Below are positions 57,320 to 60,459 of a stretch of 64,000 nucleotides of DNA, in pieces (position 1 is the first letter of the stretch; every line of letters starts with the position of its first letter). This DNA is from Bradyrhizobium sp. AZCC 2262. Its GTDB lineage: Bacteria; Pseudomonadota; Alphaproteobacteria; Rhizobiales; Xanthobacteraceae. The notes beneath the pieces were generated by a model. It saw only the letters and a program-made list of their open reading frames with translations, did no database searches and had not been told where the DNA came from. Made by a program: the position numbers and the translations under genes. The stretch covers positions 5,828,001 to 5,892,000 of the forward strand of contig NZ_JAZHRT010000001.1 in NCBI RefSeq assembly GCF_036924535.1, read 5' to 3'.

Positions 57320-57344
57320 GGAACTTAGAGGACTCCCGGCTGTT
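57320..57344 (+). promoter_or_regulatory. EcfG-type promoter for the DUF3309 gene
   Basis: GGAAC (57320-57324), a 17-base spacer and GTT (57342-57344) match the general-stress sigma factor EcfG pattern. Transcription would begin near 57351, about 50 bases before the start codon, which has its own strong GAGGAGAG site. Confidence 0.6.
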
Positions 57345-57637: not shown

Positions 57638-57720
57638 TTAGGGTGGGCAAAGGCGCAGCCGTGCCCACCTTCTCTTACGCGATCAAGAACGGCGGGCACA
57701 CTTCGCTTTGCCCATCCTAC
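57638..57720. repeat. dispersed hairpin repeat, family E, touching the ligD stop codon
   Basis: The left arm TTAGGGTGGGCAAAGGCG and the right arm CTTCGCTTTGCCCATCCTA form a long imperfect hairpin, with inner pairs GTGCCCACC and GGGCACAC. The last bases include the CTA that is the TAG stop of ligD on the minus strand. Recognised from memory as a common Bradyrhizobium unit. Confidence 0.7.
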
Positions 57721-60359
57721 TTTCCGGCCAGCTTCTTCATCGCCGTCTTGATCGACGCCGCCGCATTGTCGTAGCCATCCCACGCCTTTGTCTTTGCCAG
57801 CAACGAAGGCACGGTGCGGACCGTGTACTTCTTCGGGTCGAGATCGCCGCGCACCTGCGGCCAGGTCAGCGGCATCGAGACGGTGGCGCCGTCGCGCGCG
57901 CGTGGCGACAGCACTGCAACTGCGGTCGAAAGACGGTCGTTGCGGAGATAGTCGAGGAAGATTTTTCCCTTGCGCAGCTTCTTCGACATGTTGAGCAGAT
58001 AGCGCTCGGGGTCGTCGTTCGCCATCCACTGGCAGATGCCTTGCGCAAAGGCCTTGGCTTCCTTCCAGCCCACCTTGTCCTTTGCGCCATGAAGCAGCGG
58101 CGTCACGACATGCAGGCCCTTGCCGCCGGTGGTCTTGCAGAAGCTTTCAAGGCCGACCGCCGTTAGCCGCTGCCGCATGTCCTTGGCGGCCTCGATCACA
58201 TCAGAGAATTCAACGTTAGGTGCGGGATCGAGATCGAACACCAGCCGCCCCGGCGTGTCGTAGTCGTCAGGCGCGCAATTCCAGGGATGCAGCTCCAGTC
58301 CGCCGATCTGCGCCACCGCCGCCAGCCCCTCGATCTGATCGATCTGCAAATAGGGTTTGCGGTCGCCCGCGACTTTGGCCAGCTTCATGAGATTGGAGCC
58401 GCCCTGCATCGCGTGGCGCTGGAAGAATTTTTCGCCGCTGATGCCGTCGGGTGCGCGGAGAATCGAGCACGGACGCCCCTTGAGGTGCCCGATCATCCAT
58501 TCGCCGACCGCCTCGAAATATTGCGCCAGGTCGAGCTTGGTGACGGCCTCGCCGTCGCCTCCGTCGGGCCACAACGCCTTCTCGGGCTTCGAGATGGCAA
58601 CGCCCATCACCTCGGCGGATTTGGCCGATGATTTCACGGACCGCGCTGCGGGCTTTGCGATTCCAGTCATGGCAGGCCTCTCCGCGCGTATCTCCTTCGC
58701 CGGCTTGTCCTGACGCAGCCCCTTGAACGCGGCCTGCCGGATGTTGCCGCCATCGGTCCAGCCGGCGAACTCGACCTCGGCGATCAACTCAGGTTTCAGC
58801 CAATGCACGTCGCGGGCCTTTTTCGGCGCGTCCTTGCCGCCGAAAGGGCTTTTGTCGGACGCCGCCGCCTTCAGCGCCGGCATGATGCGGCGAACCGTAT
58901 CCTGGCCGAAGCCGGTGCCGACAAGGCCGACGAACACCAGATGATCGCCGCGATAGACGCCGGCCATCAGCGAACGGAATTTGCCGTTGGTCGTCTTCCA
59001 GCCGCCGAGCACGACCTCCTGCCCGCCGCGGATCTTGGCCTTGGTCCAGCTTTCGGTGCGTCCCGACCGATAGGGCGCATCCAGTTTCTTGGAGACGATG
59101 CCTTCCAGCTCGAGTTTCCTGGCCGATTCCATGACGGTATCGCCGCGATCCTCGAAATGATCGACATAGCGGATCAGCTTTTCCTTTCCGTTCCGCTGCT
59201 CCAGCAGGCGCTTCAAGCGTTGCTTGCGCTCGCGCAGCGGCAGCCCGCGCAGATCCTCACCATTGGCAAACAGGAGATCGAACGCAAAGAAAATGAGATC
59301 GCCGGTCTTGTTGTCCGCGATCGCCGCCTGCAGTGCGGAAAAACTGGGCACGCCGTTGTGGTCCAGCGCGACGATTTCGCCGTCGATCAGCGCATCGGGC
59401 AACGGCTTGGCGGCTCTCGCGATGGCGCCGAACTTGTCGCGCCAGTCCAGCCCTTTTCGCGTCAGCAGCGCCACATCGCCATCTTCGATCCGCAATTGCA
59501 CACGGTAGCCGTCGAACTTGACCTCATGGCACCAGCCTTCCGCGTTCGGCGGCCGCTCGACGGAGGCGCAAAGTTGCGGCGCGACGAAATCCGGCATCGA
59601 TGCGACCTTCTTCGGCCCGGCGCCTTGCGCCGGCGCGCGGGTTTTCGTCTCCGGCGTGGATCGCAATGCCGCGGTCGTGCCCCTGGCACGCGCCTCGGCG
59701 GCTTCGCCCCGGTTGGATTGCCAGACCGCATCGGCCGAAGTCTTGCCTTTGGCCAGCATGAAGGGCTTTGGTGCCTTGCCCTTGCCCTGCGCGATCTGCG
59801 CCATCGCGCGCCCCGAGGCCACGGAGCGATCCTCTTCCAGTATATCGTTGGCCTCGCCTTCTTTCGCGAACTCGTCGCGGTGCTTGATCAAGAGCCAGTT
59901 GGTGCGCTTGCCGCCGTAGCGGTCGCCCTTCATCCGCACCAGCACCCAGCTGCCATGCAGCTTGTCGCCGTGCAGGGTGAATTTCAGGTCGCCCTTCTTG
60001 AAGCCACGCTCGGGATCATCGGATTCCCAGGTGCCGCGATCCCACAGCATCACGGTGCCGCCGCCATACTGGTCGTCCGGAATGGTGCCTTCGAAATCGC
60101 CGTAGTCCAGCGGGTGATCCTCAACCTCGACCGCGAGCCGCTTGTCGTGCGGATCGAGCGACGGTCCGCGCGTCACCGCCCAAGATTTGAAGATGCCGTC
60201 GAACTCCAGCCGAAGGTCGTAATGCAGCCGCGTCGCATCATGCTTCTGGATCACGAACCGACGCTGCTTCGCCGGCGCGACCTTGACGTCGCCCGAGGGC
60301 TCGGCCGTCTTGCCGAAATCGCGCTTCTTCCGGTACGTGCTAAGTTTCTTCAACGCCAC
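57717..60359 (-). CDS. ligD: ATP-dependent DNA ligase LigD (phosphoesterase-ligase-polymerase)
   Basis: Main enzyme of bacterial non-homologous end joining. The 880-residue protein has all three modules in the order phosphoesterase (about 25-170, [23 protein letters not shown]), ligase (about 250-560, with the nucleotidyl Lys281 in [16 protein letters not shown] and [24 protein letters not shown]) and primase-polymerase (about 600-880, with LVFDLDPAP and [11 protein letters not shown]). I set the start at GTG 60359, with GAGG six bases upstream; a longer reading from 60398 would run into the promoter. It is divergent from ku, and the two share an overlapping control region. Confidence 0.96.
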
Positions 60360-60400
60360 GGCAAACCTCGACCATCCGGACCGCTCGCGCGGCGGCATCT

Positions 60401-60425
60401 GGAACGAAAACCCATACTAGCCGTT
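60401..60425 (+). promoter_or_regulatory. EcfG-type promoter for ku
   Basis: GGAAC (60401-60405), a 16-base spacer and CGTT (60422-60425), an exact consensus match. Transcription would start near 60432, about 28 bases before the ku ATG at 60460. Confidence 0.65.
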
Positions 60426-60433
60426 GAAGTTCC
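60409..60433 (-). promoter_or_regulatory. EcfG-type promoter for ligD, overlapping that of ku
   Basis: On the minus strand GGAAC (60433-60429), a 17-base spacer and GTT (60411-60409). It lies over the ku promoter on the opposite strand, so both cannot be bound at once. Transcription would start near 60402, about 43 bases before the ligD GTG. Confidence 0.55.
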
Positions 60434-60459
60434 CAAACCCAACCATGCCGGAGATTGCA

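Follow-up and report, generated by a model that had tools for sequence, protein, structure and literature searches.

The locus considered here raises the question of how two divergently oriented NHEJ genes, ku and ligD, are transcribed from a common spacer of 100 bases (60360–60459), and whether a single 33-bp sequence within it serves both of them. The window, i.e., the whole 64,000-nucleotide stretch of DNA that was analysed, corresponds to C1:5828001–5892000 of the single 9.48-Mb contig of Bradyrhizobium sp. AZCC 2262, and the best named matches to its Ku protein belonged to Bradyrhizobium. The sequence at 60401–60433 is GGAACGAAAACCCATACTAGCCGTTGAAGTTCC (Table 1). An earlier note had placed there two GGAAC/GTT pairs on opposite strands, and the bases and coordinates of both pairs proved exact on re-reading; its further claim that they represent two opposed, overlapping EcfG-type promoters, one per gene, is supported by the motif geometry and by conservation in relatives. 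The 33-bp element very probably (probability of about 0.88) serves EcfG, the general-stress sigma factor, as a bidirectional promoter.

Table 1. Coordinates of the genes and of the predicted promoter elements in the ku/ligD region of the window.
Feature	Position	Strand	Basis
Superimposed EcfG-type promoter pair (putative), 33 bp	60401..60433	both	GGAAC-N3-AAC-N11-GTT-N3-GTTCC dyad
-35 GGAAC, predicted ku promoter	60401..60405	+	Motif, conserved in relatives
-10 CGTT, predicted ku promoter	60422..60425	+	N16 from GGAAC, or N17 to GTT
-35 GGAAC, predicted ligD promoter	60429..60433	-	Motif, constrained over the Ku tree
-10 GGTT, predicted ligD promoter	60409..60412	-	GTT at 60411-60409, N17 from GGAAC
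ku, 294 aa	60460..61344	+	ATG 60460; Pfam Ku, E 3e-48; start conserved among relatives
ligD, 880 aa from GTG	57717..60359	-	3'-phosphoesterase, ligase and primase-polymerase domains (Pfam)

The EcfG-type -35 motif GGAAC was found on both strands at an EcfG-type spacing from a -10 motif, which was CGTT on the plus strand and the GGTT variant on the minus strand. Each -10 (GTT; AAC on the opposite strand) sits within the spacer of the opposing promoter, and the two -10s are 11 bp apart. With the usual distance of about 7 nt between a -10 and the transcription start, the ku transcript is predicted to begin near 60432 and the ligD transcript near 60402, i.e., about 30 bp apart, and each -35 coincides with the predicted start of the opposing promoter. 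This is the geometry of a bidirectional promoter, with one site, two opposed readings, predicted starts lying outward and both readings constrained. EcfG-RNA polymerase would occupy the 33 bp facing either ku or ligD and would accordingly produce the mRNA of the one or the other, so that the shared site would make both NHEJ genes inducible by general stress; two holoenzymes would never be bound together, since each -35 lies at the predicted start of the opposing promoter, and mutual exclusion of the polymerases is thus the outcome expected from the geometry. The GTG of ligD (60359, minus strand) is preceded by GAGG at 60369–60366, and the ATG of ku (60460) by GGAG at 60450–60453. The ATG at 60398 is unlikely as a ligD start, because this ATG is missing from some close relatives (e.g., L009), while the match counted from GTG 60359 starts at residue 1. 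A sigma70 promoter at the spacer was unsupported. Ku-like matches were also found at G000:C1:2349980-2353383, in three adjoining pieces, one of them with an internal stop, and the same genome contains two other near-full-length ku paralogues.

A single EcfG-type motif is uninformative, because GGAAC-N15-18-GTT occurred 7 times in the window against 5.4 expected, and GGAAC-N15-18-CGTT occurred 315 times in the genome, less often than the reversed-pattern control (598). The outer inverted repeat GGAAC-N16-30-GTTCC was likewise commoner in the control (187 places) than in the genome (126 places) and is therefore meaningless by itself. The full dyad, by contrast with both, was present at one place in the 9.48-Mb genome, with none for the reversed control, which bears out the claim of the earlier note that such a motif pair in one short spacer is beyond chance. 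Across the family, the dyad was found in 58 of 248 genomes and 7 of 47 genera (reversed control, 0), and across the genus in 224 of 265 genomes (reversed control in 2), the matching genomes each carrying it at one place. In the order, 16 of 397 genomes matched (control in 6), 15 of them from the same family; the sixteenth match (G350, locus L267) is probably due to chance, because there is no ku or ligD match at that locus and the dyad falls within an open frame. Each of the 58 family dyads immediately precedes a ku gene and is followed on its other side by a divergent ligase gene. In the 56 family genomes fetched at ku, the dyad was in every case inside the ku–ligD spacer, 25–78 bp before the ku start, and the spacers were 94–152 bp long, plus one of 433 bp (L205); the remaining two dyads are those of the window's own genome and of G213 (L125). 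Consequently, the superimposed pair is far from chance. The G213 pair is a distant one, with a Ku protein 54% identical and a shorter ligase matching LigD only from residue 173, and the same superimposed geometry at this non-orthologous ku may represent old inheritance or convergence.

Among the 81 spacers compared (80 named relatives and the window), the ku-facing GGAAC-N16-18-GTT motif was present upstream of ku in all 81 and the ligD-facing one in 78. The length from GGAAC to GTTCC was exactly 33 bp in 76 of the 81 aligned spacers, which comprised 50 distinct versions; the five exceptions were L012 and L019 (ligD -35 broken), L022 (34 bp), L053 (32 bp) and L048 (no mirror motif). In the 50 versions GTT was invariant, AAC deviated in one, and the middle columns carried 0–0.7 bits, whereas the letters of GGAAC and GTTCC were invariant by construction, the 76 spacers having been picked for these motifs spanning 33 bp. 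Parsimony on a tree built from the Ku DNA of 145 loci gave 0, 3 and 2 changes for the ligD-facing AAC columns and 4, 3, 2, 2 and 2 for the GTTCC columns, against 19–47 for central columns 13–19 and 18–37 for the flanks; it should be noted that the sequences aligned for this count (143 of 145) had been selected for their ku-facing motif, which makes it a test of the ligD-facing columns only, and that the tree sets omit 56 of the 201 loci described below, those with Ku below 69% identity, L125 included. Loss of the motif pairs with retention of the flanking bases had been named in the earlier note as evidence against the promoters, and the reverse was found, both motifs being kept in the relatives' spacers while the flanks diverge. 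Columns 6 and 7 (the A's at 60407–60408, before AAC), which are outside both consensuses, changed once each on the tree, and these A's could extend the ligD -10 to GTTTT.

The sigma factor assignment is based on the consensus, on the genes present and on regulons published for other genera. The window's own genome has neighbouring genes for NepR (Pfam match over the cut-off) and for a sigma factor of EcfG type, and a PhyR-like frame beside nepR/ecfG was recognised from its translation only; a genome with NepR, EcfG and PhyR is what an EcfG-type promoter requires. According to the accessible parts of the respective papers, ku-ligD belongs to the EcfG regulon of Sphingopyxis granuli (PMC7083833), ku of Sphingomonas melonis is EcfG-dependent (PMC6599016), and RpoE2 of S. 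meliloti induces Ku2-LigD2 and Ku3/Ku4-LigD4 (review, PMC12844678), a stress-induced NHEJ under an EcfG homologue to which the control proposed here would be similar. In the RpoE2 section of the S. meliloti TSS paper (PMC3616915), ku/ligD are not named. The general-stress control that the earlier note had considered plausible is thus favoured by inference, from the consensus, the presence of the GSR genes and the published regulons, with EcfG as the probable sigma factor. In the 130 loci with both motifs, the ku -10 was mostly CGTT or GGTT, and the ku/ligD pair of -10s was CGTT/GGTT in 57 and GGTT/GGTT in 56; the ligD -10 was GGTT rather than the consensus CGTT in 120 of them, which counts against the assignment, although the natural EcfG -10 boxes of Sphingopyxis granuli, in the part of the paper available, include GGTT, CGTT being the most frequent (PMC7083833).

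There is a slight chance that the superimposed promoters are real but are read by another ECF sigma factor recognising a GGAAC -35, since, in the excerpts available, the -35 AAC triplet is described as common to ECF sigma factors (PMC7083833) and half of the alphaproteobacterial genomes counted have at least two EcfG-like genes (PMC3892343); however, the published EcfG consensus is GGAAC-N16-CGTT, and ku or ku-ligD appears in EcfG/RpoE2 regulons elsewhere, as far as the same kind of partial texts go.

Other EcfG-type sites of the family served as control promoters. At 43 GGAAC-N17-GTT sites of the nepR/phyR region (30 family loci), as well as at 45 N17 sites before a DUF3309-like gene beside ligD, the mirrored AAC was found 0 times and the mirrored GTTCC 0 times; EcfG-type sites therefore do not carry the mirror letters as a rule. 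Sites pointing both ways were present at 18 nepR/phyR loci, and at 13 of these the -35s were 7–10 bp apart and back to back. One of the 30 loci (L296) had a shorter overlapping pair, GGAAC-N17-GTTCC, of 27 bp and in a different register, perhaps by chance; opposed overlapping matches are thus not wholly unique to the ku/ligD spacer, a point against the proposed reading. The nepR-side site of the window's own genome is GGAAC-N16-CATT, so that -10 matching is loose, which counts against the EcfG assignment. In the window, a further EcfG-type site, GGAAC-N17-GTT, was observed at 57320–57344 (+), about 80 bp before a gene start at about 57400, beyond the 3' end of ligD; this gene presumably encodes a small DUF3309-like membrane protein. 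The corresponding protein pattern was found at 46 of the 80 named loci, with GGAAC-N17/18-GTT 75–88 bp upstream in all 46.

The dependence of each motif on the adjacent gene was assessed by comparing ku genes next to ligD with those apart from it, adjacency being defined as a divergent ligD start at most 300 bp from ku. The first set consisted of 201 ku loci; 120 family stretches had been chosen among the matches listed, that of the window's own genome being one of them. This set omits 28 loci (L118–L146 without L125), whose genomes were fetched again later, and L215, which ends before the ku start. Its 138 adjacent loci had the ku-facing motif in 137 cases, the ligD-facing one in 132 and both in 131, while six orthologous ku genes (at least 75% identity) without adjacent ligD had them in 6 and 2 cases, respectively, and the 57 others, mostly paralogues, in 24 and 10 cases (both in 4). 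The second set comprised 40 of the 41 genus genomes without the strict dyad, the 41st (G220) being already covered. Orthologous ku was found in 19 of the 40 (L320–L338), 20 had distant ku only and one had no ku; hence, 21 of the 41 absences of the dyad mean that orthologous ku was not found. In 7 of the 19 genomes, ligD was located at 98–130 bp and the ligD-facing motif was kept, with N16 or N18 replacing N17. Six of these seven near-dyads had a ku spacer of N17 and a ligD spacer of N16 or N18, a hint that the ku promoter is the tighter one, though no proof of a set Ku:LigD ratio. In the other 12, with ligD 373–821 bp away or beyond reach, the ku-facing motif was present in 12 of 12 and the ligD-facing one (N16-18) in none, one unrelated ligD-facing N15 match in L336 lying beyond this range.

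Several of L320–L338 have ku identical to that of named loci. The loci were merged into distinct ku genes, a merge that omits, besides the 56 loci left out of the tree sets, L339 and eight loci with identical ku. Distinct adjacent ku genes (n = 140) had the ku-facing motif in 138 cases and the ligD-facing one in 134, whereas distinct separated ku genes (n = 16) had them in 16 and 3 cases (L014, L018 and L205), respectively. The Fisher value for adjacency versus the ligD-facing motif (4e-12) overstates the case, because the separations represent few independent events, not 16: parsimony indicated that adjacency and the ligD-facing motif are both ancestral, with four changes each, and the separated loci form two clades (one of them weakly supported, 0.21) and two single lineages. 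Counter-examples were also present, namely, two of the four motif losses with ligD still adjacent (L196/L197 and L207–L210), the three loci retaining the ligD-facing motif without adjacent ligD, a ku -10 of CATT in L188, and loss of the ku -35 with ligD adjacent in L324. Overall, the persistence of either motif tracks the adjacency of the gene that it faces. In L205, the ligD start is 433 bp from ku with both motifs intact, inverted repeats were observed between the dyad and ligD, and the gap is possibly a recent insertion.

The fate of the element was also traced on the side of ligD, which was located in four split genomes, G220, G626 (L012), G628 (L019) and G630 (L018), at 1045 bp from ku in L018 and outside the stretch examined upstream of ku in the other three. 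The region upstream of ligD carried a second copy of the element in all four. The ligD-side copies had an intact ligD-facing GGAAC-N17-GTT in 4/4, and TTATC or GTATC had replaced their ku-facing -35 in 4/4, while the ku-side copies of the same genomes had the ku-facing site in 4/4 and the ligD-facing one in 1/4. The copies compared (L300–L303 versus L150, L019, L018 and L012) have mostly lost opposite halves. We infer that separation of the genes came with a duplication of the two-way element, after which either copy gave up the direction in which it had no gene left to serve, although these losses are probably largely shared by descent; the parted copies would then represent, on a small scale, a bidirectional promoter that has undergone subfunctionalisation. 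In the other split clade, where ten loci were examined and two had no ligD in reach, ligD had its own GGAAC-N17-GTT 95–137 bp upstream in 8 of 8 loci, and the same applied to ligD in the genome of L048. In the split genomes readable on both sides, each gene therefore keeps an EcfG-type site facing it.

Because the motifs survive or decay with the adjacency of their own gene, the element appears to consist of two direction-specific promoters and not of one operator. That a dimeric transcription factor uses the dyad as its operator, the likeness to EcfG promoters being incidental, is very unlikely: the half-sites GGAAC-N3-AAC are conserved and form an inverted repeat at near-fixed spacing, but the halves decay singly according to which gene adjoins, which is unexpected for a dimer site, and they are asymmetric outside the EcfG letters (among 97 versions, columns 6/26 are complementary in 2 and columns 7/25 in 0). 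Moreover, a single GGAAC-N16-18-GTT stands before 17 of 55 lower-identity ku genes without adjacent ligD. Equally unlikely is the explanation that one promoter alone works and the other motif is a by-product, for which the losses despite adjacency (on the ligD side in L196/L197 and L207–L210, on the ku side in L324) would speak, together with the statement, in the part of PMC12825309 available, that divergent transcription in bacteria can arise from sequence symmetry alone; against it, the tree shows constraint on the ligD-facing columns, the ku-facing motif is found in all but one of the adjacent loci of the first set, and parted genes mostly keep their own motif and lose the partner's. Conservation of the dyad as a leader RNA hairpin or terminator is most improbable, since the small stem of the plus strand (-6.5 kcal/mol) has a z-score of -1.23 and is equalled by 25 of 200 shuffles, no terminator-like site was found, the interior columns do not keep pairing, and the predicted transcripts begin beyond the stem.

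The bidirectional EcfG promoter proposed here can be compared with several known arrangements. In E. coli, the bioA/bioBFCD and argE/argCBH spacers contain face-to-face overlapping divergent sigma70 promoters with a repressor operator. The opposed promoters predicted here resemble them in sharing a short spacer, in overlapping there and in being, by their geometry, mutually exclusive, but no operator is evident at the ku/ligD spacer. The boxes and spacing on each strand are those of the EcfG/RpoE2 promoters of Alphaproteobacteria (GGAAC-N16/17-CGTT), whose published consensus is one-directional, whereas the ku/ligD pair is superimposed. A similarity also exists with the E. coli sigma70 bidirectional promoters (Warman et al., PMC12825309), which the accessible text describes as short pseudo-symmetrical sequences giving divergent mRNAs without double binding, with a shared -10 and starts most often 18 bp apart. 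The ku/ligD element differs in its separate -10s, in its predicted starts and in a probable ECF-type sigma factor, and lacks the features of the E. coli type, in which the -10 is shared and the distance between starts is 10, 18 or 23 bp; it is predicted to work like that type but is distinct from it. The terms "ECF" and "sigma factor" are absent from the main text of PMC12825309, and no description of such a superimposed element was found in the open-licence literature among the matches listed (titles and abstract starts). Overlapping and bidirectional promoters are thus known, and what differs here are the boxes, apparently those of an ECF sigma factor, the separate -10s, the predicted starts about 30 bp apart and the strong conservation at a single locus.

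It is rather doubtful that the superimposition was selected because a forced choice by the polymerase fixes the Ku:LigD ratio through the -10 boxes and limits noise, with complementary decay following when the genes part. For five E. coli sigma70 bidirectional promoters, the available part of PMC12825309 reports that exclusion had no effect at basal activity, which is too low for competition, and that competition could appear under strong one-way activation, then also lowering noise. The locus nevertheless offers a strongly conserved case of two superimposed putative promoters for an alternative sigma factor, and it concerns NHEJ, an error-prone pathway that can take in foreign DNA. Some relatives split the pair and so provide a natural control: closely related bacteria have these genes either under overlapping promoters or under separate ones, and a comparison between them would make it measurable how polymerase exclusion acts on co-expression and on noise.

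The lower-identity ku genes without adjacent ligD (L211–L266) that carry a ku-facing GGAAC-N16-18-GTT have it 50–66 bp upstream, and the shuffled mean for the 55 genes was 0.03, with a largest value of 2 in 500 shuffles. Several others of these loci had GGAAC with a looser -10.
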